Shown in pieces: positions 2,947 to 49,695 of a stretch of 64,000 nucleotides of DNA (positions within the stretch are counted from its first letter, which is position 1; every line of letters starts with the position of its first letter). Source of the DNA: Diphasiastrum complanatum. Its lineage: Eukaryota > Streptophyta > Lycopodiopsida > Lycopodiales > Lycopodiaceae. Both the position numbers and the translations under genes were made by a program. The stretch lies in contig CM055092.1 of assembly GCA_029204225.1 (NCBI GenBank), positions 68,600,821 through 68,664,820 of the forward strand, read 5' to 3'. The notes beneath the pieces are model-generated. The model was given only the letters and a program-made list of their open reading frames with translations. It was not told the origin of the DNA and made no database searches.

Positions 2947-5900
2947 ATGATGCCGGTCCTTGGTAGAGGCATTTGGTCAGAGGTAGAGTTGACAGAGGGG
3001 GATGTGGCTACGGACCACGGATCTGGTGCCCGCAGATGGAGATGCCTGCATTGTGGCGGCATCTTTACTGGTTCTCTTACCGGGGTTAGGGCCCATTTGC
3101 TACGACTCACCAGGCCAGATGGGCGGGGGATGGGCATATCCACTTGCCCTCGCATATCAGATGCAGAGGTGGAGAGATTGATGGACACATACGGGCGTGA
3201 CAGTGCATCTCTTGAGCCTTTGAGACCATCTCACAGTGTTGTTCGTGGGTCAGTGGCAGGAGCAGGGACTAGAGCAGGTTCGGGACATGGTAGAGGTGCA
3301 CGGTCCAGAGCAGATGCAGAGGCAGGGCCTAGTCACATGGGGGGAGATATTCCCAGAGCATCCAACACACATGCAAAGGCAGGGCCTAGTCACGTGGGGG
3401 GGGGATGTTCGTAGAGCATCCAGCACACATGCACCCTCTCGTCCAGTTGTTCCTTCAGCCGCAGGTCCATCTCGTCCAGCGTCGTCATCAGCTGCTGACG
3501 CACCATTTACAGAGTCAGATCATGCCACAGAGGGCCACAGCGATGCAGCAGGCGATGCTCCACAATCAGACACACCTTCAGCATGCCCATCTATTGTTTC
3601 TGGTGGGCGTTCTAGACCATGAGAGTCCTCTATGCAGCAGAGAGCGGTTAGGGCTAGGCAGCAGACATTGGACCGAGGTGCATGGCAAAGACATCATCAT
3701 GCCCTATGTACCCGACGGATTGGCCAGCTGTTCTATGAGTGTGGCATTCCTTTTGCTATTGCAGACACTTGGATCTTTAAAGACACTTGCCTTCAGATAG
3801 CATCAGCTGATTCGTCATGGAGGCCTTCGAGGAGAGAGGCATTGCGCACGACAATGCTACGACAGGAGGAGGAGACCATCACACGGGAGCTGAGCTCCAT
3901 TCGCACAGCGTGGCAGACGTAAGAATTTTTTGCTACTCTTTACCACTTCATTTGTTTCAATCTAGAAATTACCACAGTGTTTGCAAGTGCACATGTCTAA
4001 GAAATGTTGTATTTTTGCAACTATGGATGCTCGATATTGAGCGATGGATGGACTGACACTCGTCGGCGATCTGTCGTCAATATCCTAGCGTCTTGCCGAA
4101 TTGGCACAGTCTTCCTACGAGGCGTGGATGCTACTCGAGCTGGTGGAGCCATCACGGCCGAGTTCATCTATGAGGCAGTGATCTCTGTAGTGCAGGAGAT
4201 TGGGGCAGAGCATGTGGTTCAAGTCGTTACAGACAACGGCTCGAACTGCAGATCGATGGGAGAGATGGTGATGAGGGAGCACCTGAGTATTGTGTGGACC
4301 CCGTGCGCTGCACATTGCATCGACCTTCTCATTCAGGACATGGTTGCACTTCCATGGATTCGTGAGGTACAATTTTTGTCACTTTGTAAAGCATTTTGCA
4401 CCTGTCAATTATTCCAGGCCCCTAACCTCTTTTAGCTTCTAACAATTTTTTGTTTAATGTTTGTCTTGCAGCTCACCTCCCAAGCCATGCGCATAGTGAA
4501 GTTCGTCACCAGAAAGAGGCGCGTGCTGGCATTGTTCCGTACATTCTCTCGGCTTGACCTGAAGAAGCCAGCACCGACTCGCTTTGCCTTCTTTTTCCTG
4601 GTTCTCGAGCGATTGTGCGTCTTGCGAGATCATTTGCGGAGGATGGTATCCAGTGAGGCATTTGATGAGTTCAGGAACTGCACGACAGAGGCAGTGTTCT
4701 TCCAGGCCATAGTCTTGCAGAGGACTTTTGGACACGTGCAAGTGAGATTGTAGAGGTTCTTCGACCTGTCTTCTATGTGTTGCGCCTAGTAGACCGAGAG
4801 GGGTGCACTCTCGGTCTCATATACGAGTTCATGGACCGCATCGGCGAGGCGCTTCACAGATGTGGTTTGGAGGAGGATAGGTACGTCTCCTATCACTTTC
4901 TTATTTCACTTTCACTCTGCTCGTGTTTTCGAAGATGCCTAACCATTTGCAATGTCACCTGCGCAGGAAGGACGAGCTCCTCACACGTTGGGAGGCGAGG
5001 TGGGACTACTTCCACAGACCCATCCACGCAGTGGCCCACATACTACACCCATTGTGGCGCTCTACCAGACGTCCTGGCGACACGGAGCTCCACCGAGGAT
5101 GGGTGGAGTACACCGAGCGTGTATGGCCCGGCGCAGGTATTGTAAATATTCTAGCTAGTGTAGTTGTTTGTATTAGCATATGCTTTGGTTTGTGTCCTGA
5201 CACGTGTTCTATTTCCTTTGCCAACAGGCTCGACTCTAGGGAACATAGAGCGAGACATGATCAAGTTCGAGCGGGGCTTGTATCCTTTTGATCGAGAGCA
5301 GTGTAAGCTCAGAGAGGACCAGTTGGCGCCTGTCACATGGTGGAGCTTTCATGGCCGCAGTACGCCTGACCTTCAGCGACTGGCAAAGAGGATTCTTTCA
5401 CAAGACTGTTTGGCTTCCGCCTGTGAGCGGAACTGGAGTGTATGGGCCAGCCATCACACGAAGGAGAGAAATAGACTCTCCATTGAGCAGTGCAGGCGGT
5501 TGGTGTTTGTGAACACCAACGGACGCATGTTGAGACACACACGCATGCAGGGTGACCGCTTGATCGAGGTGAGTTAGTGACTTTACTAGTATTGCTTGAT
5601 GTACTTGCGTTTCAAATGAATTTATTGAAAAATGCATAGGTTTGCTAACCATGCCCGTTTGTTTTTGTAGGTGAACCCTGACTCCTGCAAGGTACATACG
5701 ACAGCTGCTGATCCTTGGGTGCCACCTACGGAGGAGGAGGTCGAGGATGATATCTACCAGGAGCTACATAGGCAGGCAGCACGGTCAACGCCACAGGAGA
5801 GCAGCTCGACGTCAGGAGATGGGAGAGGATGGAGATGATGAGATTTGGGGGCATGCAGAGGGATTTGGGCATGGGTACGAGGAGGAGTGGATGGATGAGG

Positions 5901-11367: not shown

Positions 11368-12025
11368 TCATGTAAAGTCATCACAAAGGTCATATAGTAT
11401 TATGCCCCCTCTATAATCTGGTGTGGGCGGGACCACACAAATATGAAAGTACAATCTCAAGTACCTCCTCGGCCCTAGTAGCACTTCAGGATGGGAATCT
11501 TTGCCTCTATTCTTTCCCATAGTGCAAGCTTCACATGCATCTAAGCTTAGCTTAACATTAACAAGACCAACTGCCATATTGTGCTAATAAGCACTTGTAA
11601 GCTTTGATAGTTAAAGTGGCCATAGCTTTCATGCCACATTTTGGTATTGGCCTGAATTCTTGGCTCATAAAGCTTGTCCACTAGGAATGGCCGTATATAA
11701 CCTGTAGAGATCATCCTCCTACAATCCTTTGGCTACAAACTTGTGATTGTGTTATTTGTCCTTCAGCAGTGGAATGGCTGTATATAACCTCTAGAGACCA
11801 TCCTCCTACAATCATTTGGCTACAAACTTGTGATTGTGTTATTTGTCCTTCACCAGTGGAATGGCTGTATAGAACCTGTAGAGACCATCCTCTTTACAAT
11901 CCTTTGGCTACAAACTTGTGATTGCGTTATTTGTCCTTCACCAAACACGTCGTCTCATCAAAGTCAACCATCATGGCATCTTCGCTAATGGCTCCAACTA
12001 ATAGTAAGTTCTTGGCTAACCTAGA
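11368..12025 (-). pseudogene. Ty1/copia pre-integrase fragment
   Basis: On the minus strand, reading from 12,025 down, the fragment shows an LL-VGAISEDAMMVDFD-like segment, an LYRLYTAIPL segment that is repeated, a KMWHESYGHFNYQSL stretch (the histidine-rich pre-integrase motif) and DACEACTMGKNRG (the CxxC-GK motif that opens copia integrase). Several stops and frameshifts interrupt it. It may belong to the same minus-strand copia as the gag at 19.5-19.9 kb, with the Helitron inserted between them; that link is inference. Confidence 0.75.
11686..11946. repeat. 87-bp tandem repeat, three copies
   Basis: Copies start at 11,686, 11,773 and 11,860 (each AATGGC[C/T]GTAT...), an exact 87-bp period with a few substitutions and one single-base insertion near 11,893. 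The period is 29 codons, so the triplication keeps the reading frame of the copia pre-integrase domain in which it lies. Confidence 0.92.
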
Positions 12026-12029
12026 GGAA

Positions 12030-12850
12030 TTTTACAGCAATCATCCAAAGTAAAATTCAAATTCAAATTTCACATCAGCATCAGAATTTTAGATTTTTCC
12101 TTTTAAAATACAACTACATTATGTTTAGAAACACTTAAATCTTCTTACATTTTTGGTTTGGAAGGTAAATATGTAAGTACAAAGTCTTCAAAGTTATAAA
12201 ATAAAATAAGCCCTTCAAGATGAAAACAGGGTCTGCCCTTCAAATTCCAACCCTGATTCACATATACAATGAGCAGCACCTAAAAATCAAAATAGGCAAG
12301 CAAATTTTAGCAAATTATTACAAGCTTTATAGCCAGCCAAACGCTTTCTCGTTTCAAAATACAACCAAAAAATGAGAGTCCTCCATCCAACAAATGTAGT
12401 CAACTACAGCTACAGCTTTTAGAAACTGCATACAGATAATGTGTGTTGTTCGAAGTATATGTTTCAGCTAAAGCAAATGAACCACCGAAGAATCTATCTC
12501 AAAATTCTAGCTCACACAATCCAAGAGCCGAAATTGCAAAAGGAGGCAACCAGACCCACCTAGAGGCGCACTGTTATTCTCAGCCGAAAGCGACCACACC
12601 ATCGTCACTGCCTCTTGCTGCCGCTTTATCCACAACAATCACCCCACGCCCAAATGCTTCTGAAGGACGTTGTGAGTTGTGTCCACCAAAATAAACAAGG
12701 TGATCCGATGCGATTACGAAAGGCCCTTGCATATTGTTATGATTTTGTAATACACTGCATAAATGTTAGGGTTGGGGAGTAATAAAAAGTTAACTAATAT
12801 AGAGGCTTAAGAGTATAATAGATAGACAGAGTGGGAAATAGAAATGAACA
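12030..12850. other. No recognisable gene
   Basis: AT-rich up to 12,440, then a more balanced stretch (12,443-12,694) with a short plus-strand open frame rich in Ser, Thr, Pro and Ala that matches nothing known to me. This interval contains the left boundary of the Helitron-derived block. Confidence 0.4.
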
Positions 12851-12853
12851 TAT

Positions 12854-14960
12854 TTAAAGGGAACATATATGATTGTAATATCTTGCACAAGTTACATGAT
12901 CATGTCGAATAAGGTTTTGTATATTGTTTTCTTCTAAATGCAAGTGTGTATCTGAGTTATGAATATTTGCTAAGCTATGCAAACATGTTACAATTTTTGG
13001 CCAATGTGACTTAGCACTTGTGAACGTTACAAATAACGTTGCTGATCCTAGTTGTCTGATCATCGCAAAGTCCTTTTTTGTTTTGTCAAGATAATCGGGT
13101 GATGTGCGTAGCATTCCTAGATCTCTATATCCAATATCAGATTTCATTATTGTGGCAATTTTCGAAGTGTCAAGCATGTCTTTCACTTTAAGAGTACGTC
13201 CATAAGTTTTTTCTTTTCGTATATGAAACTGTGCAGTTGATAAATGAACTTAATTTGACATTTAATAGTTTTGTAAAATAGATTTGGAATGTGAGTTGCG
13301 AAACGCCTATCATGGTGCATGATTTTCCATTGTGCAATTTGTTGATATGTATTGTTTTCGAAAAGCATTTTCTGTTGTCGACATCCATAAAGTTGGGAAA
13401 TTCAATTCTTCACTATCTTTGTCTTGAAATAATCCCAATGGTTGATAACCTTCGGCTGGTGCTATTGAAATGATTTTGTCTTCAAATCTTGTATTTGTTG
13501 TGATGTTAAAAAATTATATATAAGGGTATTTGAAAACGTCTCATCTGCAATTTCAACAAAGTCCGTGGTTTCTTTATCAGAAAAGATAACGGTTGTAGGA
13601 CTACTTGGTGATATAATATTGCTATTAGTATTCTGTAATCGATATGCAAATTCATTGGCTTGTAATTTTACTTTTCAATTAGGAAGAATTTGTATGCCCA
13701 ATTCAGCATACAAATTTGTTTTGCAAAGGTCTTGAAATGTTGTCATTACGATATCATGTTTAATTAAGCCTGAAGCAAAAACTTATTTATATTCAAGCTT
13801 TCGCTCTATTTGTATAGCTATAGTGGAATTCTCATCAGGGAATCGAGGCAGTGTAGTTTGAATCTTATCCAAGTTAACAACGCTTCCATGCAAACTAAAT
13901 TGACCAAAAATTGGGTGCATTTGCCGAATTTGTGCAAATGCAAGTCTAGGTGATACTAAGCGTTCTTTCAATTGGTTCAGTTTTTCAACGGTTGGTATTT
14001 TTTTGTTCATTGATACATTTATTGGAAATAGAAATGGCGGCATTCTTTTAGCCTTCAAATATTTATAACAATTTCTGCAAGTTCACATTGTATGTTCATT
14101 TGCATAATCGAAATTGTTTGTTTTAATTGTTTTAAATATAGGCTCATTTCTACTGGTAATTGCTTTGTTTGATGCTTGAAATTGAGTTTTCCACAACTAC
14201 GACATACATGTATAGGTGTGTCTTTTATTTGTCGAAGGTACCTTTGTTGTTCCTTATTTTGAGCAACATTATGATTTGTATCTTGAGAAATATGGTAATG
14301 TGTAAATTGATTATTTGGGAGTTCATGATTTTGTCTTTTTAAGTATCGTATATATCGGGCAATTGCAGTTATTTGAATATGTGCATGTAAATCAATAATT
14401 GAGCAAAATTGTTTTGCAATTTCAATACTAGAAAGATATTTGTTATCATGAATTAGTTGTAAAATTCGTTCACGGTATGAAGTTGCCCATTCAAAACAAG
14501 TTCTATTTTCAACATGTTGTTGAATATATGTTCTTGGCATTATGCCATGACAATGTGCTGTGTTTTGTTTTTTCAAGTATTTGATGTGTCTTGTGACTTG
14601 TTTTGTAGTCAAACATTCGCTTAAGATTTTCATAGTTTCTAAAAAAGAATTCGCAATTTGCTCAATTTTCAAAGTTTTGTCAGCCATTATTTTGAGTAAT
14701 TCACGATTCATATGAGCATGCCAATAGAACTTTGTATGTCGTTTTCTTTTCCGATTTATTGTTTTAGTAATTGGCATGATTTCCGTATTGTATTCAAAAG
14801 TTACCTTTTCAATAGCAACATTGACACTTGCTTGTTGAGTATTTGCATCATACAATAATGTTACTGTTTCTGAAATACTAACAGGACATGTTTTTATACT
14901 ATGCCATATTTCTTCGAAATTGGTTGACAAAACAATGATCAGATTGATGTTTAAATCCAA
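12854..14960 (-). pseudogene. Helitron Rep protein, N-terminal part, no helicase
   Basis: Reads from 14,960 down. The first 300 codons (14,055-14,960) are open, Lys/His-rich, and end in a CRSCGKLNF zinc-binding motif. The next frame (13,783-14,058) carries ERLVSPRLAFAQIRQMHP and VVNLDKIQTTLPRFPDE, the conserved region just upstream of the Helitron replication domain. The block at 12,854-13,186 reads KKDFAMIRQLGSATLFVTF then TSAKSHWP, the start of the Helitron_like_N domain, and ends with HDHVTCARYY. Frameshifts at about 14,057 and 13,780 plus stops in 13,190-13,780 break the gene. The HUH catalytic site and the Pif1-like helicase expected next would lie below 12,850 but are not there, so the gene is 3'-truncated. 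In Helitrons Rep nicks and rolls out the element DNA. Confidence 0.8.
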
Positions 14961-15164
14961 ACAAGTCCAAGTGAGCAGAAATTCGTCGAGATATACAACA
15001 GTATTGTACTTTATTTGTGTTTGATCTTTGATAAGATATTATGTCATAGACAATGATATTTTGTGCATATTTCGATCTGTATCAAAATATTTTTGTTGCC
15101 AATGAATCGCAATTGGATCTCTTTTATCTATACATGTTTCAAAATATTGTATAATTGCTTGGAA

Positions 15165-16310
15165 GATTTTTTGGCTTTTCAAAAAGAGGTCTTAAATATT
15201 CAATTGTTGAAAAACATATACATTGGGAATTCAATTGTTGAAAAACATATACATTGGGAAAAAAAAAAACTAACGCAGATATCGTACAAGCTGATTTTAT
15301 AGAGCGCAGTAGTATTTTGAATAGAAGATAACTACTTTGTACGCACTATGATAGAATCAAAGATATGATACAGGATTAGGACGAACCTGCATTTGGGGGT
15401 TTTAATGTACTACAAATTTACACTTTATATAGTTGAAGAGATTTGCTTTAAATTTAGATTTTCAAACCATGTAAGCCAAATTGTCAAAACATAGATCATA
15501 TACCGACACATTGGAAATTGCCAAAGATGCAATTTACTTGAAAAATTTGCATTCCCAAAGCAATAATATAGCCACGAACCAACTATGCAAAATTTGAAAC
15601 GACTTTCTAACGTAATTGTTGAAAGATGGACAAGAATCTGCCAAATCAAGATCTGTAAGGAAAGTAGTTGTCATAATTGGTAAGAATTTTATCGGAAGAA
15701 TTTGGAACTTTTCATGCAATCAAATTTTGTCACTCGATAAGTTAAGGATATCAAATGAAGAAGCTATTAGGGTAAACCAAAGTTTCCAAAAACTTTGCAT
15801 TTACTATATCTTTGTAACAAACCTGTATTCTAAAACAAAAATTTTCGGGTTTTCAAATAGAAGCTTTAAATATTCAATTGTAATAGAATATATACATTGG
15901 AAAAAAAAGTAATACAGATTATGTAGAAATTGATTTCACAAAAACAAATATTATTGTCAAGCGAAGATAATTACTTTGAACATACTATAGTAAAATCAAA
16001 GATATGATACAAGATTAGATTCGACTTACGTTTGTAATTTGTAAACTACAAATTTAGACTTACATAGTTTAAGAGATTTGCTTTAAACGTACATTTTCAA
16101 AGCATATAAGGTGAATTGTCGAAATATATAACATATACACACACATTCGCACAAATTGAAGCAGTTTTGAAGAAATTTTTTGAAAGATGAACAATATAAT
16201 AAATCAAGATCTATAAGCAAATCAGTTGACGTAGTTGGCTGTCAGTGTAAACAAAAGTTTCAAAAAATCGTGCGTTTATTATAATAGTTTAACAAAGTCA
16301 AACACGACCA
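15165..16310. repeat. Tandem duplication of about 640 bp between Rep and RPA
   Basis: The block from about 15,165 to 15,830 recurs at about 15,845-16,310. Shared words in order: TAAATATTCAATTG, ATACATTGG, TCAAAGATATGATACA, AGAGATTTGCTTTAAA, TTGAAAGATG and AAATCAAGATCT. The offset is about 640-675 bp. In the left copy a 38-bp piece ending ATACATTGGG is itself doubled (15,195-15,262). No coding sequence was seen. Confidence 0.8.
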
Positions 16311-16380
16311 AAACTAAATGCGTTTGTCAGTTATTAAACATATATAGATACAGAACTATACCTACAATGTCATGTTCATG

Positions 16381-18512
16381 TTAAAAGTTGGTTTCTTCAT
16401 TTAGTATTGCAACGACATTATCAACAGAGGTAGAACGTTCCACCATTGGCAAGTCAGCTTGTTGAAAGGGTTTCATACAAAGTTGTGAGGTACTTACATC
16501 AGTTCTAGCGATCTGAATAAAAATAGGCGTGCGAGCAGGTATAGAACTGCAACATACAATTTGGACAAAGGATTTAGAAAACCATATACGGAAAAAAGCG
16601 AAATAATTGAAGTGAATAAGAAATTGCATTCTATCAAAAATACATATATGTACATTGTGCAAGGCATCTCCACTCCAATAAGATTGTTTTGACCATCAAG
16701 TTGGTATTTTGCTTTTGTTCAATAGCCACCATTTTTGCACGAATGGAGATTGGGTCTTTTTCATATGTTGTTGGCAATGATTCAGTTAGCTCCAATATTG
16801 TTTGGACCCATTCATCATAAATACTCACCCCCACAATTTTACCATTGTCATCTTCAATTCATGTCGTAAGCACATCCACCTTTTTCAACAATGTGGTATT
16901 ATCACATGTACGGCAAAAACATGTCGCCAATGATTTTCTAGTGATCTTCTTGGATTGGCAAATCGAACATACAAAGTCGATCGGTGGAGCATTTAAATTT
17001 GTAATTTTCAATGTTCCAAATACCTACATGCATACATTTTTCAGCATTTATTTCAAGTTTATATATTCAAAGCATGTAACATAAACCAATAACACATGCA
17101 ACGAAACACATAAAACATAAATTTAAAATTGTAACACATGAAGGTTTTTCAAGTACACCTCCATTCCAACAGTTGTAGCTTGAGTGACATGGAATTCTTG
17201 GACATCCAACAAAAGCTTTTGAAATGTCAAATCATGGATTGCCACAAAAATTGTATAAGGTTGTACAGTAAGTCGAATCAATCCATTCCCGAGTGTGCCT
17301 TGAACATTTTTTAGCATTGTAAATGGACGACCTTGTCAAAAAACTTTTTCTAGTTCAAAATATTGAGCACGAGTCACTTTCCAAAATGAAACCTACCAAA
17401 TCCATGTATATGTTTTAAAAAGAGCAAATCCGAACAACAAAATGTCTGGGAAATACAAAAACCTGTTATAGCAACTTGAATGAGATTAACAACTAACCGT
17501 TTGAATATCACTTGTCGTTTTGCCATCTGCAACTTGTATATCGTACTGTTCCATTTGGAAGCCTTTCACTTGGCCAAGTATACCTATAAAAGCAACTGTT
17601 ATTGTAAATGTGTAGTAATTTGTTTTTTCTCATTTTTCAGTACTTTTTTCCACATTCGAAGGCTTCAGTAGGCATGAAATTCGCAATGACATCAAATGGT
17701 TTGATTTGTGTCACAACAGAATTGTGTTCCATACGCAATATGTATTTGGCATCGCCATAATCGTAGTCAATTTTCAGAACAATGGCAAAGTTTCAAATCG
17801 TAAATACAATCCAATTTGAACTTTAGCTGCATGTTTATCTACAGTAGAACCGGGCATCATAGCTATCACTGTCGACATGCCAACTCGATCAATCATGTCA
17901 CACCTAAGGTATGTCCATGCTTGTCCTGGTTTTTTGTTCCCACGATCGAAGCTGCCATACCTAGACAGAATAATCCCTTCAAAGGTGCAGTTTGTCCAAA
18001 TTGGGCAAACATCATTTACAGCTAAAATGTCGGTTTGAGGCCTTTTTGACATTTTGTAATTCTGTTATGGAAGGAAACGTTATGATCTAAGCAATAAATA
18101 GTAGAAGCAATAGAACAGTATTACAAAATCCATCATGCAACTTACTTTAAGTCAAAATATGGACCTGATTTTATTAGTAATAGCAAAAAGTGATCCCAAT
18201 AGGTAATTGCAAATTGAAATATCGAAATAACAGAAAGTGATCCCAATACGTGATTGGAAATTGAAATTGTCAAGTATCAATTGGCAAATGATGAATCCCT
18301 CAAGGAAAGTATTGAATAGATGTGCCATTGCACATGTTTGTATAATTGAATACTGATTGCAATGAATAATTGGAAGATGGAATATTGAAATTGTCACGTA
18401 TCGATCAGTAGATCATGAATCCCTCAAGGAAAGTATTGAATAGATGCGCGATTGCGCATGTAAAATACCTGCATCTGTCAATGTCATGTGCTCATCACTT
18501 TGATATTCCATT
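16381..18512 (-). pseudogene. Helitron-associated RPA70-like protein gene
   Basis: Single-strand DNA-binding protein of the replication protein A large-subunit type, as carried by many plant Helitrons. Reading from 18,512 down: a short exon (MEYQSDEHMTLTDA) with a GT donor near 18,468; an OB-fold exon (18,052-17,690) with PGQAWTYLRCDMIDRVG; pieces at about 17,570-17,500 and 17,395-17,125 (LTVQPYTIFVAIHDLTF); then 17,025-16,650 with CSICQSKK and CFCRTC, the four-cysteine zinc finger of the C-terminal OB domain, followed by a segment to 16,634. A C-terminal piece ends at 16,381. Several frame changes coincide with plausible introns; others look like lesions, for example near 17,340 and 16,860. 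It lies about 1.4 kb upstream of Rep on the same strand. Confidence 0.72.
18180..18460. repeat. Short direct repeats
   Basis: GAATCCCTCAAGGAAAGTAT recurs at 18,292 and 18,417, each followed by TGAATAGATG(T/C)GC and CATTGCACATG- or GATTGCGCATG-type hairpin-like words. GTGATCCCAATA(G/C)GT also occurs twice (18,190 and 18,238). This lies in the intron or leader of the RPA-like gene. Confidence 0.75.
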
Positions 18513-18514
18513 TC

Positions 18515-19550
18515 TTCTTTGACTGTTGTGATAATGAAACTGAAAACTGTAATGATCAACCCAAAATACAAATATGGAACAAGCAAAAGTTACAAACTTT
18601 CATGACAAATTGCCTAATACATTGAATATGAACGATACATGAAATCATAGGCAAACACTAAAACAGTCTCAAAACTCAGCCAATCCTCTATGAACAAGTA
18701 CCAACCCATGTTAGCGACATAGTTCAGTAACACACACGTGGAACTTTATCGAACCATAATTTTTGTACAACATGAAATAAACACAATGGTTGTTTTAACA
18801 AACACGCATATGATGTGCTGTAATTTAGAACATCAAAATCTAGAACTGGAGCAGGGCAAGAAACAAGGATGCTCAAATAACCCAAAATCCATGTACTTGT
18901 GAATGAGCAGGTCTGAGATGATAACCCAGTCTACATCTCAGAGGCTACTTCTATGACACTGTAAGACCTCAATTGATCACTACATAAACCATTCTCACAT
19001 TCAAACAAAATAAATGCATAACGTCATGTCCATGACATATATGTAGAATCATAGATAGTGTCTATTTCATGAGCATATATATGAAAATCACCCCTAAAAT
19101 GAGTACAGAGATGCCTCCCCTCGCTCATTCACAAGAAAAGCATTCACATGGCTGCCTAGAATTTTGGAAAAAATGTGGTGCATTGCATGAGCAATACATT
19201 CCTGGATCGGTATTTATGTTGGCGTCCAAAACGTATGAATATGGTTGAGAGTGGAGAATAGAAATGGCTAACCTTAGACAGTACCTTAGAATGTCAGCCC
19301 ATAGACAATTTCAATCAGCATGTGACTGCATCCAACTGAATATTGCGGCCTTTGATTTGGTCTGCCCATTCACGTTCAAAGTTCGATAGGTGCTGAGATC
19401 ACTAAAATGGAATTTGAAATCATTACTGCTCTCCATTCGAAATTGTTGTTAATAATAATGTACGTACTCACACTAGCAGACATAGTAGATGATATAACTA
19501 GTTATTATAAGGAGTTGTCGGGCCTGAAGCGACATGACTTTATGATGTCC
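18515..19550. other. No recognisable gene
   Basis: AT-rich sequence between the RPA-like gene and the copia gag. The right end of the Helitron should lie here (5' end, TC on the minus strand), but the sequence alone does not define it. Confidence 0.4.
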
Positions 19551-19551
19551 G

Positions 19552-19884
19552 TCACTCTCTCATATTGCTTGTATTAACATCTTGAGACTCAAAGGTCTCG
19601 ACCAAGATGTCCCAAGCCTCTTTAGAGGTTTTAGCATGGCTTACATGGATAATTACATTATCCCGTAAATTCAGAATAATGGAGGCTAATGCCCGCCCAT
19701 CACGCATCTCCCACTTGCTAAGTGTCTCTTCACTTCCCGTGTTAGGTTTTAGTTCAGTCCCTTCCACTATTTTGTAGTAAATCTTTCTCTAACAATAGCA
19801 TTCGCATTTTTAGCTTCCATAAATGGAAACCTGAACCATTGAACCTTTCGATGAGGCGATGGGTTTCAGTCAAGGATGTCGCCA
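19552..19884 (-). pseudogene. Ty1/copia gag N-terminal fragment
   Basis: ATG at 19,884 opens MATSLTETHRLIERFNGSG then FHLWKLKMRMLL, the F-G-W-K pattern that begins copia Gag. After a frameshift at about 19,765 the frame continues with ALASIILNLRDNV and KTSKEAWDILVETFES, the central Gag helix motif. The fragment stops at 19,552, where the sequence becomes unrelated. A PBS-like site lies upstream at 20,806-20,818 on the same strand. Confidence 0.8.
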
Positions 19885-20395
19885 TCACTCGGTGTGGCTT
19901 ATGATCCTTACCAAACTTTAAGAGGTGCTAATGTTTTGGAAGGTGTATTCTCAAGCTAAAGGCAACTAGCAAGTGAGCTTGAAATACAATGCATTTTGCA
20001 TTGCTTCTGAAAAAAAAATTGTTTCGTTTCAGTTTGAAGTTCATAAATTCCAATTCACAACTTCACAAAATTTTAGTGTTAAACAGAATCTTTTAAAGGC
20101 TTTTTAAGATAGCCTCACAAAACTTTCAATTTCAAATTTATGTTCCTGTAAAATGAAGAGTTCATTAAATTTTACAGGTTCTTTTGTTTTTCAAAACGTC
20201 AAAGCGAATCACAATTGAAAGTCACATTAAACAGATGTCTTAAACTTGAATGCCAAATCTTTTTCTATCTATATGCTTTTCAATTGTTCATTAGAAGACT
20301 TCAAAATAAGGACAGTATTTAACGTTCCTTTCAACTCAAAAATCAAAATTCAGACATAGATAGAAAAACTACCCTGTGCAAAGGCATATGTGATG

Positions 20396-20590
20396 AGGCC
20401 CAATGAAAGTCTATGCCACTGCGGTGGACAACAAGGCCAAAGGCACGGTGGGAGACATAGCACCCATTGCCTTAGGCTTCATAGTGCTAGCCAACATCTT
20501 GGCTACTGCACCCTTCAGTGGGGCTTCCATGATCATTCAGCCCAGCCCTTGCAACATGGAACTTGGGACTTTGTTTCTGGATGACAGCGG
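20396..20590 (+). pseudogene. Aquaporin (MIP family, TIP-like) fragment
   Basis: About 60 codons of a water or solute channel. The frame reads [32 protein letters not shown] and PFSGASM, the end of the fifth membrane helix and the loop leading to the second NPA box of plant tonoplast-intrinsic proteins. Exactly at the NPA box the frame breaks: bases are lost and the C-terminal side ([10 protein letters not shown], resembling the WDF stretch before helix 6) continues in the next frame. No flanking exons are present. It lies antisense between the PBS-like site and the gag of the minus-strand copia. It is a dead gene fragment, and subfamily assignment is tentative. Confidence 0.72.
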
Positions 20591-20669
20591 AAAGTTCAAG
20601 AGGAGATTGACTCTACGTTAGGCAAGGGAGTGCTAATGACAGCAGTCGCTCAGTTCAAGAAGTGCTCGT

Positions 20670-20785
20670 TTCATGAGAGGCGCAACAGTTCAGCGCATCA
20701 TGCAGCGGCCTTCAGAACAGCGCATCACCAGACCAGCGCAACATGCAGTGGCCTTCAGAACAGTGCTTCACCAGCGCACCTCTCT
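20670..20785. repeat. Two-copy repeat of about 48 bp
   Basis: CAGCGCA(T/A)CATGCAG(C/T)GGCCTTCAGAACAG occurs at about 20,692 and 20,735, each copy followed by a TCACCAG word. It is a local tandem duplication of unknown role. Confidence 0.7.
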
Positions 20786-20805
20786 GAACACATCAGATCT
20801 TGGAA

Positions 20806-20818
20806 GGCTCTCATACCA
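20806..20818 (-). promoter_or_regulatory. Copia-type primer-binding site (initiator tRNA-Met)
   Basis: The minus strand reads TGGTATGAGAGCC, one mismatch from the TGGTATCAGAGCC site of the plus-strand copia at 56,928. The position fits the minus-strand gag at 19,884. The gap of 900 bp between PBS and gag is far longer than normal and contains the aquaporin fragment. Confidence 0.5.
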
Positions 20819-20819
20819 T

Positions 20820-21025
20820 ATTGCGGAACGAGAGAGAGAGTGACAAGAGAATATATTGACCGTCATGAATGAAAGCAATAGCTCTTACATGTAGAGTAGC
20901 GTGCAAGAGTGAAAGAGAGGTGTCTCTTTGTGTATGTCGCAGACGTGCAACGGTTGGGGACCCCAAGTGGTCCATGTGGCATATAACAGTCCTTTAGACA
21001 TTTGGACTATACATTATATTTAACA
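20820..21025 (-). repeat. Putative copia LTR
   Basis: The interval directly upstream (in minus-strand sense) of the PBS-like site, ending at TAACA (minus-strand TGTTA) at 21,021-21,025. It has a GAGAGAGAG run near its inner end. No second copy was found in the window, so LTR status rests on the PBS and the end motif only. Confidence 0.3.
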
Positions 21026-21182
21026 TACACTTCATGGAGGGACCAAGTATAGGCCAACAGGGAGAGGATTTGTTGTCCGGCATGAAAAGTTTGCTGAGAA
21101 TTGCGGTTGGTACTCTAGGAGTCACTTTACTAAAGGATTTGAAATTCCAATCCTACTCATTGTGTATAATACTTACTTTTTA
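21024..21182 (+). pseudogene. Callose synthase (GSL) fragment
   Basis: About 52 codons of a 1,3-beta-glucan synthase. The frame reads LHGGTK, YRPTGRGFVVRHEKFAEN, YSRSHFTKGFE and ILLIVYNTY. This corresponds to the conserved cytoplasmic segment and the start of a membrane helix in the C-terminal half of plant callose synthases, where Y-R-x-T-G-R-G-F-V-V and Y-S-R-S-H-F are nearly invariant. No stop occurs inside, but no upstream or downstream exon of this very large protein (about 1,900 residues) is visible nearby. It starts exactly where the putative LTR ends. It is an isolated fragment, not a gene. Confidence 0.8.
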
Positions 21183-21189
21183 TGTCTTC

Positions 21190-22600
21190 TTGAGTCTGTA
21201 GCAGATAGGAAACAATGCTCAGGTGTTGTTGGTATTGTCACCTTTGTTTGTTTTTTCTCGATCAAGCATCATAGGTGACTTGTATTTTGTGCTGGATCAA
21301 AGCGCCTAAGCGCCCTCGTCCCTGGAGCCAGGTAGCTTCAAACAAAGTCATCCCATGTCAAAGACTAAATCAGTTTTGAGTTTGTGTTATTGCCATGCAT
21401 TATTCTTAACGAACACCTGATTCCTTTCAGTTTTCCACACTCCGGTTCCGTTCACATTGGCTGGTCAATCATTATAGCATTTTTCAGCCTCTGATAACAC
21501 AGGGCTTGATAACTGTTATAAATATAGCAGACACACAAAAGTTTTGAACGTTCTATAACAACCAACATCTAGCCATAAACGATTGTCTTCAACGTGCTAG
21601 ATTTGTTACAAAGTAGGCATTCTTTTGGGATTTGGATGCGTATCTGCAGATTCAACCGCCAGCGAACATTTGTAGTATACTTGCAGAAAACGAGGACGTT
21701 GTTTGAATTTCCTTTGGCCACTTAGTGTGGAGCAAGATCTATTGTACGCAAGAAGAGAGGCCTGACGAATAGGCTATAGAGAGGATGGCGTTTCATCTGA
21801 AGTATACCACATGCAGTGAAAAGGGGAGATCTTCAACTTGTCATGGATCAGAGGGCCTGAGGAAGTGGGCAGCAAATCCACGAGCAGTGTCTGTGGGAAC
21901 AGTTTATAGAACTTTGCAACCTGAATGGAATGGCATTGTTTTCAATGCTTCTATCCCTACAGTGATCTTGTTGTCTGCAATGACGAATCAAACTGTGTGC
22001 TTACAAAAGAACTGAATGAAGTTGATGAGTCATTGGCTTTGGACGGATGGTGGTGGAAGGATATAAGCATGGCCAAAAACAGCAAGAAAGCTCGTATTTC
22101 TTTCCAATCCTTGAATATCTTCAATTGAAGTTTGTGATCGGAATCTCTTAGTATCTAAAAAAAGTGGCCAGATCTTAGCAACACCTACTTATTGAGAAGA
22201 TAAGTCATCAACTCATGAAAGTGACTTATGATGATCAAGTATTATTTCAATTTCTGACGATTGTATTACGCTTTACAGATCTTTAGCTTACATTCTGAGT
22301 GATACATTATATCCGAGAACAAGGTGGCTGCAAATTGATGAACATGAACATAATCCAAGGGCCTTGCAAATCAAACAGTGAAAGATGAGTGATCTTCTTC
22401 ATCAGAAATTTCAGATTTTGTGGCTTCAAAGGCAAGAAAATATTTATTATAGAACTTTTGGAGGGTAAAGCCAACTCCTGGGAAAACTACCACCCACAGG
22501 CTTTCCACATTAGAGGGCATACTAGCCGACTGACAGGGCTTTGTGAAGGAAAAATTTCACATAGTCATGGATATGGTACATATTGTAGCAAATAGGAAAG
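21190..22600. other. Unassigned stretch between gene fragments
   Basis: Short plus-strand open frames at 21,785-22,128 and 22,389-22,595, about 65-75 codons each, with base composition closer to coding than the surrounding AT-rich DNA. None could be assigned to a family. Given fragments of known genes on both sides, these may be further captured exons or introns. Confidence 0.35.
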
Positions 22601-22617
22601 AAAAGAGACAGGAGGCC

Positions 22618-22764
22618 ATGGCTTCTTCAAGCGGATGGGTTGTTGTAGAAATTGATGAAGACTTGCACAGTTGTCAGTTGGCAGTCTATGGCAGAGAGGC
22701 AATGCGCCAGTTGTTTGGATCCAATGTGCTGATTTCTGGTTTGCAAGCACTTGGAGTTGAAAAT
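22618..22764 (+). pseudogene. Ubiquitin-activating enzyme E1 (UBA1) fragment
   Basis: From ATG 22,618 the frame reads [10 protein letters not shown] then [37 protein letters not shown]. This is the N-terminal start of the first adenylation half of E1, whose plant consensus is [18 protein letters not shown]. Here the invariant Arg of HSRQL is Cys and the Gly before LG is Ala. Homology stops after GVE at 22,761, near a GGTATG that could have been a splice donor. The next conserved segment (I-A-K-N-L) is not found downstream. E1 activates ubiquitin with ATP, but this piece lacks the whole catalytic remainder. Confidence 0.78.
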
Positions 22765-22779
22765 GGTATGTTGCAGTAA

Positions 22780-24395
22780 CTTCCCAATTAGTTGAAAGCC
22801 TGCACTTCAGACGCTATGTAAACTACATGGAATTTTTGTCATAGATCTTGGAAATTTCCAGAATTAAAAGGTAAGAATGAACTTGGCGAACTCATATGGT
22901 TTCAAATGAATCTGATTGAGCATTTCAGTTTGTCTATTATCATCTGAATCTAGATGTTTGCAAGGATGACGGTTGTGCTAGCAAGTTCAAGCAGATAAAA
23001 ATGGCCTAGGACATTCGTCGCATCTTATCATCTTCCTCTTTGATAAGATAGCATAGTAGAGAGAAAGAGCAACACGTTAAGTACATTCTTTATTGACTGA
23101 TTATAGAAAGAAGGGCGAATTGCCCATTACATAGTGCGTGATAGAGTGGATCTATCGCTCAAGGAGATCTATCGCTGGAGGTAGGCTAAAACAACTGCAA
23201 CAGACATCCATCCCTGCCCTGGAGCAAGACAAAGATGAGAACTCAAGACTTCAAACTCTGAGCAAAAGACGCGAGCCTCCTCTGTGTTTGATGATACCTG
23301 CAATATCCATGTCTCTTCCTATGGATGAGTACAACACTACCCAACAGAAACACATCGTTGTAACAACCATGTTCTTGAACAATCTATTGTACCAATGATC
23401 TGTCTCCTGCTACGGCTCAGCAGCTGGGAACATGGTACATAATTCACAATATACTCTGATGCAGATGCAAGTGTCCGCAAGCGTCTACCTCAGCAGGAAG
23501 AAACAAATTGTGCTCTTATCCCTATCACCTTATCACCTGTATCATGATCACGACATACTGATTCATGTGGCCTTCACGTGCACGTCCAATATGATTGATA
23601 AAAAATGTTTTGCCAAACTGGGAAATGGCTTTTGTCCCGAGATGAACGTGATGCGAACACGTCATCAGGTGGTGGAACTGTCACAGTATCCCTGCCCAAC
23701 AAGGGCAGGGCCAATAAAAGAAAGGGGTATGACTTATAAGTTGATGTTTGAAGCCCCTGGCTTCAGCCGGGCCCAATAAACTTTCGCCATGTGGCAAGCA
23801 TAACAATTGAGAATCAATATCTTAACCACAATCTTACCCCAAGAAGCAATGTGCTCTCAACATGGTGCATACATTCTCAAATTGAGTATGTACTTGAAGT
23901 CTCTTACTTGCTTGTGTCTTCTTCTTTTTTTTGGGGGGAAGGGGTCCCCCACGGGTATTGCCCCTTACAAGAGGATTCCAGCAAATTTTTTTGACAAAAT
24001 ACACTTGTTTTTTTAGGATTCATAGCTTTACTTGAGTACTTAGTCCAAATCTTTTGCCACTTGCAACATTTGAAATTCACATGGTATTTATGATTGGGCT
24101 CTGGGGCAAAACTTTTCTTGCATGTGATGTGTTTCCCAAGATATGAGGGGCTAAAAGTTTATAACAAGATAGAATTCGAATGTTGAAAATGGTTTTCAAG
24201 TTATTTTTGTGGGGAATTATTGCCCTCACTGAGTTCGATGACAAACAAGACAAAACTTGAAAATATCCAACTAAATATTGAAAGTTTTATGATTTTAGGA
24301 GGAAATAACTTTGTGGTTGGTATAACACAAAAGCCTTGCCATAATTGTAGTATATTGAGACATTGTAAAATGTTTGCAATGAAAAATATCATTGT
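22780..24395. other. No recognisable gene
   Basis: Two plus-strand open frames (23,138-23,398 and 23,432-23,779; 86 and 115 codons) have no recognisable motifs. At 23,040-23,130 a GAGAGAAAGAGC run followed by TTTATTGA resembles LTR ends in the region but has no partner copy. A G-run/C-run (23,930-23,950) follows. Confidence 0.35.
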
Positions 24396-31533: not shown

Positions 31534-32962
<1,429 letters not shown>

Positions 32963-38114: not shown

Positions 38115-38555
38115 CAACATTCGACCTTTCTAAGTTTTGAAAAAATATCTTACCACAAGCATCATTCACACTTCAAGACATACGATTCCACAAAAGGTTT
38201 TATTGTTGCACACCATGTGGCATAAAAAAGGTAGACATCATGTGCTATCTTTTTCTTGAATCATGGCAAGCAAGAAAAGGCCCTACATCCAAGAATTGAC
38301 AATGTTTGAGATCGAAAATAGATTTGGGAACTGGTGGTTATAATTGAACACAATAAACACACACGCAGACGGTAGTCTAGATTCACATGTACGATGTGAG
38401 AGAAAAAAACATCGAGTGCATTAATATAGAGAAACAAATGCTCTTTATAACATTTTATTATTGAAGATGGTCTAAAGTTAACAATGAATGGAAAGCATTA
38501 AATCAAGATTTACATTGAATCATCAAGATCAAAAAAAAATCTAGGTGAAGTTGAG
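38115..38555. other. No recognisable gene
   Basis: AT-rich spacer between the gypsy integrase fragment and the first LTR of the concatemer. The minus strand at 38,120-38,330 may be further decayed integrase, but no motif could be fixed. Confidence 0.4.
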
Positions 38556-38919
38556 GAAAACACCTTAGCCTATGGACAGTCTCTTGAAACTTAAGTAAGA
38601 GTAAAAAGACTGAGGTAATTTTCATTGCTCATCTCTGTTTTGACTCATGTCTTAATTCACTTCATAATACATATAGAAGATGAGTAAATGTTATTCAGTG
38701 TATTATTTCAATGGTTATGAATGGAGTCTGATTAGTCTATTTATACTAAATGAGTAATGCAGTAAAAGATGACTAATGGATTTACCTTCTGCAGTTAGAA
38801 ATATAGTTTTATAGTCAGTAATAATTCACTGAGTTACTGTCTGAGGTAAAAAAAAACAGTCAACATAAAATAGATTTCAGTTTTTGTTTTGGTTTACCGA
38901 ATATGCTCTATGCTTAACA
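38556..38919 (+). repeat. LTR-1, 5'-truncated
   Basis: Only the last 364 bp of an LTR, matching 51,742-52,117 closely (both start ACCTTAGCCTATGGACAGTC and end TGCTTAACA). It is joined at its left to unrelated sequence. It belongs to the same subfamily as LTR-4, while LTR-2 and LTR-3 carry a different 3' half. Confidence 0.85.
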
Positions 38920-39207
38920 AACATAATGGCAAACTACAAGCATAATAAATCCCATATTGCTAATCCATTAAAAAACATGGAAAAGCTACTGCTCAAAGTG
39001 GTTGAAAAACACCATTAGAGCTATATATATATTATATATTTCCAAAACCACATACATTATCAAGATGAAACCATTGAAAAAGATGGTCAAGCTTTTGTAG
39101 ATAAATCATGGCAATTGCATCAAAGATTGAATAAAATTAAGTTTGCTTGATTGGAAACAATACAAGAATAAGTAAATGAAAAACATTTATATCTTTGAAA
39201 AGAATAT

Positions 39208-39495
39208 TTGAGATGGATTACTTATGAGGTGAATGGGTTCAAACTTAAGTTACCTTCTAGTATAATCTATGGCAATATCCGAACTAGAAACCCAATGACT
39301 GGCTTCATAATCATACCAAAACCCCGCTATAGTGTTATGAGCGCTATTAACCAACACACAAAACATACCACACGTTTTATGGCGACCACAATGGGATTTA
39401 GATCCATGAAAGCCAGATACTCTAGTGGTATCCTAGTTCATACTGCCATAGAGGATTTAGAAGGTTTAGAAGTGATATCAATGCTCCTAATGTGA
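39208..39495 (+). CDS. Unnamed ORF upstream of gag, repeated in the concatemer
   Basis: A 95-codon open stretch with WITYEVNGFKLKLPSS, YGNIRTRNPMTGFIIIPKPR and YSSGILVHTAIEDLEGLEV. The same frame recurs at 45,307-45,585 (one-base deletion near 45,380), inverted at 46,382-46,191, and partly at 52,321-52,440. Upstream, an in-frame decayed extension reads DGQAFVDKSWQLHQRLNKIK and is seen best in the inverted copy (46,427-46,630). It therefore looks like the remains of a longer protein of the retrotransposon. I do not recognise the family. The start codon is not fixed. Confidence 0.45.
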   Translation: MRWITYEVNGFKLKLPSSIIYGNIRTRNPMTGFIIIPKPRYSVMSAINQHTKHTTRFMATTMGFRSMKARYSSGILVHTAIEDLEGLEVISMLLM

Positions 39496-40196
39496 AAGAA
39501 ATTGGACAAATATGAAAGGGAAACATACATCTTGATGAAAAAGAAGAAAAAAAAAAAATTGAATATTCCACATGGAATTGACCTCGTGAAATCCTTTATA
39601 TGTGTTTTGATTTTGAATGGACAATCATTATTTAATGATTGTATAGATGAAAAATGAATGATTGTAACTTTTGATCATGATGGTATTGTGTGATAAAAAT
39701 TGTTGTTTGGACTTGGTGATATTTGTGAGATGTGTGAGCAAGATTGAATGTTTTCATGATTGAGTAGTACAACAGTTTCAAGATTTGTAGAAGAAGGTAT
39801 AGTGTTGGACAGAGAGGTGTAGGTGTGAATCCTAGCCCCACCATCCTAGCCTAGTGGGTGCCATCTTGAAGTAGACAAGGAAAGTCACTCAAGAGGACCG
39901 TATCAAAATTGCATGTCTTGAATGAGTGTTATTCATACTTGATAAAGAAAAAGAAGAAAAAAAAAAATTTGTGAAAAAGAAGAAGAAGAAAACACATAGA
40001 AATGAAAGATGAAGAGAACTAGCTAAAGAAGCTATAAGCATTACAAACTAAGTAAGTCCAATTCAAAATTGAAATCAATCATTATCACCAAATCTATAAT
40101 TAAAAAAAAAAATCATTTATACGATCATTCACAACAATCCAATGGAACATATAGAAAATAAATAAATAAATAAAGCCAAAAAAAGAAAAAAAAACA

Positions 40197-40710
40197 ATGT
40201 CAATGGATGAAGAAAGTGCCAATCTACCCAGTTTCAATGGAAATGAAGATGAAGATGCAGACCTACATATTCAAAGATTCATGAATGTGTGTAGGCAAAA
40301 TTATGAAGAAGAAGATGATGCTATGTTTAGATTATTTCCAGTAACATTGGATAATCTTGCTCTTGAATGGTATTCTGTATTGAATCAAAAGAAAATTTGC
40401 AATTGGACAAAACTTAATACAAGCTTCTTGGATAGGTTTAGAAAATGGAATTACTATTCTGATGTCATCAAATTACTAGCTGAAATTAAATTGAAATAGA
40501 ATGAACCTATCAAAAGCTTTGTTGATAGAATCAATTGTTTGGCTAAAAGATTGAGTGAGAAACCAGGAGAAGAGTTTTTCTTATCTTGGTTTATATCAGG
40601 TTTGCATGATGACATGGCATATAGTATTCTCTCAAAAGTTCCTAAGACTTTTGAGGAAGCTATCTCTAAGGCAGTTGCTATAGAACATGCTGATAAGATG
40701 ATGACATAAA
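40197..40710 (+). pseudogene. Retrotransposon Gag
   Basis: From ATG 40,197: LPSFNGNEDEDADLHIQRF, FPVTLDNLALEWYSVL and WTKLNTSFLDRF, the retrotrans_gag pattern of Ty3/gypsy-type elements. A TAG at 40,497 (likely from CAG) ends the first frame after 100 codons. The same frame then continues with NEPIKSFVDRINCLAKRL, FLSWFISGLHDDMAYSILSK and EEAISKAVAIEHADKMM before a TAA at 40,707. No zinc knuckle follows. Present only in this unit of the concatemer; the other units have lost it. Confidence 0.85.
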
Positions 40711-42253
40711 TAGAAGAACTTGATAAGAAGAGTTGGATAGATAGATCCTTGGATGAATTTGATGTAGGAATCTCTTCCTACTATGCTAGAGTATCATCTA
40801 TTTCTAAATTTTTTTTACAAAAAATGAATCTTGTTATTCTGATGATCCTATTCAAACAAATGGAGGATTAAGAAATTTACGTATCAATGTGAACTTCATG
40901 TTTTAAATATATATGAGCAACCTATGAAGATATTGTTTTATTAGAATATACAATATGCAATGACAGTTTGAATGTAGGATCCAATACAAATTCAAATATA
41001 GTGTGTGTTTATGGACGAGATGCACAGATTTCAATGATTATATGTTTACAAACTCGATTTGCCATATCTATGAAATGCTTTTATTTTTTAAGCTTAAAGT
41101 AAGGAGAAACTAGTGGTTCGACTACCAATTGAACAACTAATTTTATTTTTATGACACAAATGTGTGAAAGGCTATCTTGAGAAAAATATTTCATCTTATT
41201 TGAGAAGGATATAATATACATCTTGGAAGGTGATACACTCTATATGAAGATTGGAGGTAAAATATCCACACACATTACACTTGCATCAATTAGACACAGT
41301 GGTGTATGCATCCATCTGATGAAGAATCTGAGACCTTGCATTTCATGTCTACTTGCATTATGCATTGATTTGAAGATGGGATGCAATGTTCTAATGCCTT
41401 GGATGGGCATTTTTGTTGAATAGTGTCATGAGGGTGGTATTGAGAGGAAATATGAATATTTGGAATGGATAAAACATCACCAGTGGGGAGGTGAGTGAAG
41501 AAAAAAAAAAAAAACACGTGATGAGTGAAAAAATGAGTGGAGAGAATATGATGAGTGTTTTCTATTTTGTTGTTCATAAGGTCTTGAGAATTATAATTGG
41601 ATCATAGATTTTCTTTGGTAAGAATAGAAAATATTATATCTCATTCAAAATCTATCTGTGAGAGTAGAAATGTGAGGTATAGCATGAATATTTGCTTGAA
41701 AAAAAAAAAATCTACCTATTATTTAAGGGAGTGAATAGGTTTTTATGAGAATGAGATGTATTCACAATGTGAATGACGAAGATCCAACTTTTAGAATAGG
41801 TTGCATTGCACGCACTACATTATATGAAGACCTAGACATGAAGTTGAGAAACTGCATTCATATCTTGTTACAACAATAAAAATTGCATCAACATTTCCCA
41901 ACAATCCATGGTTTTGATGATGGGCACTACATTATGATTTGATGGGAGTGGGAGCATATTTTCTTTAGACATGGGCTGGATGTAATGCAAGATTTTCATT
42001 TTGGATAAAGACAATGTTGATGAAAGATCTAAAGGCGGAATCAATGGTCTTTGGATTCATGCTGCTGAATAATAATGGTTAGCATCACACTATATTGTGT
42101 GTTGAGCCCATTAATTGACGAAGAAAACCTTGAAATGCTGAAAAGATGAAAAGATCGTAAGGCTAAATCAATGGCTTTATGATACAAAATCAAATGTCAA
42201 AGACTATTCCCTCTGTTCGCAGGGACACTTCACATTTAAGTGGGGGGGAAACA

Positions 42254-44293: not shown

Positions 44294-44336
<43 letters not shown>

Positions 44337-49285: not shown

Positions 49286-49695
49286 GCTTTGGTGATAATG
49301 ATTAATAATGATTGATAATGAAAATTGCATCAACATTTTCCAACAATGCATGGTTTTGATGATGGGCATTACATTATGATTTGATGGGAGTGGGAGCATA
49401 TTTTCTTTAGACATGGGCTGGATGTAATGCAAGATTTTTATTTTGGATAAAGACAATGTTGCTGAAAGATCTAAAGGCTGAATCAATGGTCTTTGGATTC
49501 ATGCTGCTGAATAATAATGATTAGCATCACACTATATTGTGTGCTGAGCCCATTAATTGACGAAGAAAACCTTGAAATGCTGAAAAAATGAAAAGATCGT
49601 AAGGCCAAATCAATGGCTTTATGATACAAAATCAAATGTCAAAGACTATTCCCTCTGTTCATGGGGACGCTTCACATTTAAGTGGGGGGGCAACA
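49286..49695 (+). mobile_element. 3' end of internal region before LTR-4
   Basis: After the 18-bp inverted repeat and an ATTGATAATG word, the sequence matches 41,877-42,253 and ends in the polypurine tract AGTGGGGGGGCAACA. Most of the internal region, including Gag, is missing. Confidence 0.85.

Follow-up and report, generated by a model that had tools for sequence, protein, structure and literature searches.

The route by which Helitrons capture host genes is still argued, and for repair-type copying as that route the evidence is indirect. Among the described systems closest to the one considered here, the Helitron2 group is characterized, according to PMC3627910, by an inverted repeat of 8-15 bp and by insertion between TTTT and T or C; the programs for finding Helitrons that were in use at the time of that paper relied, as described there, on Helitron1 ends alone. 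Fragments of host genes have been described in maize Helitrons, e.g. ZmhelA1, for which PMC3288121 gives eight predicted gene fragments. Here we present an analysis of a 64,000-nucleotide stretch of the genome of Diphasiastrum complanatum (Lycopodiopsida; contig CM055092.1, positions 68,600,821 to 68,664,820; hereafter the window), which contains a mobile element spanning several host gene fragments. The ends of this element agree with the Helitron2 end features quoted in PMC3627910 and PMC5148889, and it is probably a decayed, non-autonomous Helitron2-like rolling-circle transposon carrying a mosaic of host gene fragments that was gained stepwise.

An earlier note on this DNA had read the block at positions 20396-22764 as a cassette of captured exons from aquaporin, callose synthase (CalS) and ubiquitin E1 genes, located beside a Helitron. 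The three pieces, of which the aquaporin is of the TIP type, are real and all lie on the plus strand, as supported by Pfam, PDB and DNA matches to parent-like loci. They are also short, as claimed, but comprise ~40-60 rather than 50-60 codons, and the E1 piece passes 22764 into an intron. The block itself was used as a query against the assembly of the same plant genome (1.745 Gb, 5176 contigs), and the other copies that the note had proposed to look for were found: the block is present in at least 41 matching places, including the window, a count that is a lower bound because 40 of the 173 candidates were scored. Twenty loci of 10 kb each, a minority of the matches, were compared with positions 9-30 kb of the window, and the comparison refers to this 20-locus sample. 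Apart from copies of the element, the sample includes two copies of the GT92 parent-like gene (L012 and L013), three loci containing the Copia part only (L020, L021 and L024) and two containing the GT92-E1 piece alone (L015 and L023).

The comparison revealed that the block lies not beside a Helitron, but inside an element of ~11.0 kb. Pieces of at least four host genes lie within this element, namely (i) CalS, (ii) a J-domain (DnaJ) gene, (iii) E1 and (iv) a GT92 glycosyltransferase gene, and these recur together, in the same order, in several copies with common ends. This joint recurrence contradicts the view of the block as a graveyard of unrelated pseudogene fragments, brought by separate insertions with no capture involved. 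Such an origin is scarcely credible, even though the TIP piece came in a separate carrier, namely a Copia retrotransposon.

Following CalS, the pieces of the other three genes are placed within one another. The ancestral order, CalS-DnaJ[E1[GT92]E1]DnaJ, all on one strand, is preserved whole at a locus of contig C5 (L009 and L036). In L009, the pieces stand in a row as CalS, DnaJ 486-971, E1 1038-1362, GT92 3590-5088 and E1 1431-1471 (parent coordinates), and L036, which follows on that contig after another ~6.2 kb and in the same orientation, continues with E1 1464-1975, DnaJ 1309-1444 and then the 5′ end of the element. The order is broken only by the ~6.2-kb gap at E1 1464-1471, a segment which is present on both sides. 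The gap is likely to be a later Copia insertion, because it contains frames (in L009:6487-10000) that resemble Copia pol by eye, and the duplication of E1 1464-1471 would fit a short target duplication. The upstream E1 piece (1038-1362) is joined to GT92 3590 onward in 9 of the 20 loci, all of which have DnaJ 486 to 966-976 ahead of it. The window likewise shows GT92-E1-DnaJ, including the E1-to-DnaJ joint; its copy is without ~910 bp at 21475/21476, comprising the 5′ part of GT92 and the upstream E1 piece, both of which other copies have. A different joint, linking 22211/22213 to 22917, is found in seven loci (L014, L016, L017, L018, L022, L026 and L028). In the nested arrangement, 68 bp of E1 are replaced by GT92, and ~340 bp of DnaJ by the E1/GT92 block.

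It is probable that the fragments were added one by one, with later pieces placed inside earlier ones. Each capture step would most likely have been the repair of a break or of stalled replication, in which an ectopic template was copied and joined at little or no homology; we infer copying of this kind because nested placement with partial loss of the earlier fragment is its expected trace. Rolling-circle transposition would then have spread the mosaic, and single copies would have lost parts by deletion. It is quite possible, although we propose it tentatively, that the Helitron2-like family as such collects genes by repeated internal copying of the repair type, the captured DNA (DnaJ, E1, GT92) becoming the next landing site, and not by 3′ read-through.

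The extent of the element was deduced from its two ends, both of which are common to many copies before the flanks differ. The high end (at approximately 23718) is the stop point in 10 of the 20 loci, i.e. in all of those containing this part. They represent 7 distinct flanks rather than 10, since L017, L018, L027 and L028 have one flank in common and may not be independent. L036 ends at the same position, and the end comes after CCCTGCCCAACAAGGGCAGGGCC and an A-run, with some variation. At the low end, 13 sequences (including the window) stop in CACCTTGTT (element orientation), with 8 distinct flanks; 9 of the 13 were chosen because they were already known to reach that end. A genome search with positions 12660-13260 as the query (40 of 236 candidates scored) gave 42 matches: besides the window, 11 start at 12687-12694, while 27 start at 12869-12873, one at 12837, and two are short. 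The matches starting at 12869-12873 belong to a second subfamily, whose 3′ part differs and which may keep a helicase. An identical 3′ flank was observed in five copies (L010, L051, L053, L054 and L055), which suggests segmental duplication or redundant contigs, and not separate insertions.

The 5′ end reads TGGCCCTG in 12 of 12 rows, and the 5′ repeat begins 1 bp from the end, where 0-2 bp and a hairpin are characteristic of Helitron2. The 8-bp stem is perfect in 7 rows (the window, L010, L016, L017, L018, L022 and L028) and mismatched in the rest, and the predicted fold of one sequence has an energy of -18.5 kcal/mol; the element presumably starts at that 5′ T. The 3′ copy is the complement of the 5′ repeat, and its distance of 28 nt from the end falls within the ~20-30 bp of Helitron2. 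The 5′ flank reads TTTTTGGCCC in 9 of the 12 rows, 4 of which have one common flank, and the base following the 3′ end is T in 6 of the 8 distinct flanks and A in the other 2. The 5′-TC and 3′-CTRR of Helitron1 do not occur at the ends, which read TGGCCCTG.. and ..CACCTTGTT. Helitron1 ends had been sought with a hairpin-then-CTRR scan, which gave 5 matches versus 1.9 expected, none of them in 18-31 kb, and with a TCTMTACTA scan, which gave one match per strand, approximately the chance level by estimate; they were abandoned after the real ends appeared.

On its minus strand, the element contains a Rep-like fragment and a decayed DUF6570 frame (Table 1). No helicase was detected among the ten window frames searched against Pfam, and only ~160 bp separate the Rep-like frame from the 3′ end, which leaves no space for a helicase there; the window copy is therefore taken as non-autonomous. 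Open frames at 16637-18064 (minus strand), upstream of the Rep-like gene, resemble by eye the RPA-type single-strand-binding protein of some plant Helitrons, but such a gene is not claimed, as those of the frames that were compared with Pfam and PDB yielded no supporting match. Plant Helitron RPAs are reported, according to PMC4683698, only from monocots and dicots. Two repeats of ~84 bp with 87% identity (18255-18461) are also located inside the element and are present in several copies.

Table 1. Features of the Helitron2-like element and of the sequences nested in it (window coordinates)
Feature	Position	Strand	Remarks
Whole Helitron2-like element	12694-23718 (~11.0 kb)	minus	runs from the 5′ end (high coordinate) down to the 3′ end (12694)
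3′ terminus, ..AGGGCCTTTCGTAATCGCATC.GATCACCTTGTT	12694-12730	minus	3′ inverted repeat 28 nt from end
Rep-like Helitron N-terminal domain, fragment	12857-13249	minus	PF14214, E 6.3e-6, 26.9 bits (curated cut-off 28.9)
DUF6570 domain, decayed frame	13786-14082	minus	PF20209, E 3.7e-5, 24.6 bits (cut-off 24.3)
Copia gag remnant	19552-19927	minus	PF14223, E 3.2e-12
Copia long terminal repeat (LTR) retrotransposon, 5′ part, nested in element	19571-21025	minus	gag, LTR edge and primer-binding-like site
TIP aquaporin fragment	20409-20569	plus	antisense in Copia leader; parent-like gene L039 (contig C9)
Primer-binding-like site	~20807-20818	minus	match with 1 mismatch
Copia LTR	~20822-21025	minus	between TIP and CalS pieces
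Callose synthase (CalS) fragment	21026-21170	plus	145 bp from within one larger exon; abuts Copia LTR
J-domain (DnaJ) gene, 5′ region, first piece	21171-21429	plus	L057 486-761 at 77.4%
GT92 glycosyltransferase fragment	21476-22544	plus	3′ coding part and 3′ flank; 5 stops
Ubiquitin E1 fragment	22538-22904	plus	exon to 22765, GT donor 22766-22767, then intron DNA
J-domain (DnaJ) gene, second piece	22895-23037	plus	L057 1309-1444 at 83.9%; far side of E1/GT92 block
5′ terminus, T-GGCCCTGCCC-TTGTT-GGGCAGGG	23690-23718	minus	5′ asymmetric terminal inverted repeat; hairpin beside T-rich flank

Several observations weigh against stepwise capture by a Helitron2-like element. As regards the class of the element, the 3′ complement extends over 8 bp in just 3 of the 13 rows, over 6 bp in 7 rows (including the window) and over 4 bp in the other 3, the 3′ hairpin is weak (-3.6 kcal/mol, one sequence folded), and an uninterrupted T-run is missing from 3 of the 12 5′ ends (the window, L014 and L026), which are still T-rich. 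The Rep match scores under the Pfam curated cut-off, and the frames searched contained no helicase; the ends are therefore the main basis for placing the element. In L027, the 3′-end motif (L027:1745-1845) is inverted relative to the rest of the copy, so this copy may be rearranged, or the motif may be part of a second copy. As regards the mosaic, only one of the five junctions, the GCTTT joint between GT92 and E1, exceeds a chance-level 2-bp overlap. There is no microhomology at CalS-DnaJ, ~10 unassigned bases lie at DnaJ-E1, a TT overlap at E1-GT92 and an overlap of ~AT, of uncertain placement, at E1-DnaJ; since 2-base overlaps are within chance, a single joint carries the case for microhomology. 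The J-domain relative is not a close one (~71-85% over the pieces), so the true DnaJ donor may be another gene. Finally, L015 and L023 (2 of the 20 loci) contain the GT92-E1 piece but lack any further stretch of the element measuring at least 80 bp, and a chimeric locus captured whole would give an identical layout.

The last two points correspond to an alternative origin, in which the mosaic was at first a chimeric host locus, composed of rearranged genes or pseudogenes, and was captured whole by one element, e.g. by read-through. The pieces share one strand and follow each other directly, with no element sequence intervening, L015 and L023 show no further element part of that length within their 10 kb, and for a bat Helitron there is experimental support, according to PMC4778049, that flanking DNA is captured by read-through. 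However, at the place of L015, as seen in L034, 54 bp that match 23361-23414 (the 5′ region of the element) adjoin the GT92-E1 piece. This suggests that the place is a deletion derivative, and the copy would fit a deleted element; L023 was examined less finely. Moreover, the captured DNA is located near the 5′ end, whereas read-through adds DNA at the 3′ end. On the minority of genome-wide matches that were fetched, we regard prior assembly in a host locus as unlikely and retain stepwise capture within the element.

A search for parent genes, which the earlier note had proposed, was successful for the CalS, E1 and TIP pieces: each has a parent-like gene elsewhere in the same genome, in which the frame is longer or additional exons are present. 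Its statement that no other exons of these genes lie nearby also holds: tblastn of the 64-kb window (with Arabidopsis protein queries) gave one significant stretch per gene and no further exons, hence there are no intact local TIP, CalS or E1 genes in the window. At the threshold used for comparing parent and window DNA (E 1e-5), no parent-like locus matches the window outside 20409-23037.

The CalS piece exhibits 95.2% identity to the parent-like gene L045 (contig C12; 2 kb of the gene seen). Positions 21024-21278 match Glucan_synthase (PF02364, E 1e-9), and a PDB search with this piece returned nothing at E 0.1. An apparent extension of the CalS match upstream is not homologous, but stems from the edge of the Copia LTR, which happens to be open in that frame. 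The J-domain parent-like cluster is located on contig C16 (L057; PF00226, E 3e-5), with a second relative on contig C2 (L058; E 8.1e-6), both values being sub-cut-off. The GT92 parent-like gene (L013, contig C3) has a frame of 639 aa with a Glyco_transf_92 domain (PF01697, E 3.3e-12), and the window piece is 87.5% identical to it. One of two unassigned frames suspected of being further captured pieces (21785-22128) indeed belongs to this GT92 fragment; the other (22389-22595) does not represent a separate piece, but DNA downstream of the GT92 stop, with E1 from 22538. In PDB, no match better than E 0.25 was obtained for the unassigned frames.

The E1 piece was compared with L037 (contig C210), in which the next exons are present; there, the exon is followed by a GT, and the coding sequence continues behind an AG with the expected codon. 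Identity is 91.9% over 22538-22772 and 88.1% over 22772-22904, with ~180 bp of the intron missing, and the donor GT is kept in the window. A splice acceptor initially placed before the E1 match was wrong, since the match to the parent-like gene continues upstream. Positions 22534-22779 match E1 chains in PDB (14 sequences, best E 2.7e-7), and Pfam gave a single row, an unrelated family at E 0.15. Because it includes intron DNA, the E1 piece was copied from DNA and not from mRNA. The fragments are pieces of genomic DNA that include intronic, upstream or downstream sequence, rather than captured exons. An origin of the fragments as retrocopies of mRNA is practically negligible: it is contradicted for E1 by the intron and upstream DNA, the first DnaJ piece starts upstream of the likely start codon, and the GT92 end shows no poly-A tract. 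The TIP and CalS pieces are each confined to one exon and are for that reason uninformative here.

The aquaporin piece has a different carrier. Positions 20397-20621 match Pfam MIP (E 1.6e-6) and the TIP2-1 chain 5i32 in PDB (E 9.3e-9), and 20409-20532 show 91.1% DNA identity to the parent-like locus, from which the piece differs by a frame-shifting deletion of 11 nt and an insertion of 1 nt. The deletion falls at the second NPA motif. The unit surrounding the piece has the gag type, LTR edge and primer-binding site of Copia elements. The same LTR-leader-gag unit is present in L020 and L021 (10 kb each, with no Helitron part) and in L040 (3 kb seen), where it stops at the LTR edge (21023-21026) with unrelated sequence beyond; TIP was recognized in the leader by protein match in L020 and L040 and by DNA match in L021. 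L024 contains only the LTR end (20494-21025) and has a flank in common with L020. A gag frame of 263 aa is retained in L020, whereas no second LTR was found in the 10-kb loci L020 or L021, and no complete Copia element was seen. Since the same leader with TIP exists without a Helitron in L020 and L021, the TIP piece is assigned to the Copia element. Of the three pieces that the earlier note had read as one captured cassette, CalS and E1 are thus host fragments of a Helitron-type element, whereas TIP is not.

The CalS match starts exactly at the Copia LTR edge. Either the Copia element resided in a copy of the callose synthase gene and was taken up along with it, or it inserted into the CalS piece when this was already part of the Helitron, with loss of the other side. 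Six loci (L014, L016, L022, L025, L026 and L027) are without 19129-20814 and keep 19039/19128 and 20815/20830 onward; a solo-LTR reading was not adopted for them because in L014, L022, L025 and L027, the four inspected, the junction reaches a few bases into the primer-binding site. A Copia pol remnant was also observed beside the 3′ end of the element at 11371-12040 (minus strand; PF13976 gag_pre-integrase, E 0.0026, sub-cut-off, the rest recognized by eye), and three tandem 87-bp units (11684-11943) are located inside it.

The divergence of the pieces was calculated as Kimura two-parameter (K2P) distances. The mean K2P to the parent-like genes is 0.063 for CalS (10 copies), 0.088 for the upstream E1 piece (9) and 0.080 for the E1 exon (5), and the corresponding means between copies are 0.046, 0.061 and 0.075. 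Six element copies of GT92 are at 0.066-0.076; mean values for GT92 were discarded, as they include the parent-like gene and its paralogue. These parent-copy and between-copy distances suggest that capture occurred not long before the spread of the copies.

The note had also considered that the captured exons might give a chimeric transcript. A transcribed and possibly selected chimeric gene could be imagined, because the GT donor of the E1 exon survives and most CalS frames are open: the CalS query gave 11 element-type matches (window included) covering at least 59 of 60 residues, and 10 of these are without an internal stop. The CalS piece is, however, short and the copies are young, so stop-free frames tell little. 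Relative to its parent-like gene, the window GT92 piece carries 5 stops and 15 indel columns besides 55 substitutions, of which 26 are G>A or C>T, and deletions differ between copies. The single orientation seen in the note is correct for the fragments, all of which lie on the plus strand, but they are antisense to the Rep-like gene. Given the GT92 stops and indels, the TIP frameshift and this antisense position, the window copy is unlikely to encode an intact chimeric protein, and we consider a functional chimeric gene very improbable. Ratios of changing to silent differences versus the parents (window: GT92 0.55, E1 0.53, TIP 0.16) were not used as a test of selection, because they mix the histories of parent and copy.

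Elsewhere in the window, frames resembling pieces of class III peroxidase were noticed by eye at 31537-32640 (minus strand), and an open frame of 468 codons is located at 62406-63809 (minus strand). Self-comparison of the window showed dense direct and inverted repeats with ~78-97% identity at 38551-52477.

The nesting of fragments permits the order of captures to be read and hints at how such elements collect genes. Read-through at the 3′ end and repair-type copying make differing, checkable predictions here, because the order is readable, the genome itself contains the parent-like genes and many copies are available for a comparison of the joints. Gene capture is also demonstrated for an element with Helitron2-like ends, and the TIP piece is a warning that one cluster of fragments on the same strand can have two different carriers. 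If the stepwise interpretation is true, the locus would preserve a datable, Russian-doll record of captures, possibly in a species other than the well-studied flowering plants. In the titles and abstract starts of the literature searched, subscription papers being outside this search, no report of a nested layout in a Helitron2 element was found.

Among known systems, the Helitron2 group (e.g. Helitron-1_CRe and Helitron-5_SMo, as described in PMC3627910) resembles the element in its 5′ repeat placed 1 bp from the end with a hairpin, in its T-rich 5′ flank and in the 3′ repeat copy 28 nt from the 3′ end. The element differs from this group by its large mosaic of host fragments, by the lack of a detected helicase in the window copy, and by a 3′ repeat mostly shorter than 8 bp with a weak 3′ hairpin. 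The gene-capturing Helitrons of maize are alike in having several host gene fragments per element and in their stepwise acquisition; they have, according to PMC3288121, a 3′ end of the CTAG type, whereas here the ends are Helitron2-like and the fragments lie within fragments. Helraiser/Helibat is likewise a rolling-circle element that mobilizes host gene fragments, for which PMC4778049 describes a 3′ read-through route; in the present element, the captured DNA is located near the 5′ end and is nested. The TIP piece, which travels inside Copia, has its counterpart in LTR retrotransposons with captured host sequence (PMC13317346), and is distinguished from the cases described there by being short, antisense and located in the leader before gag.

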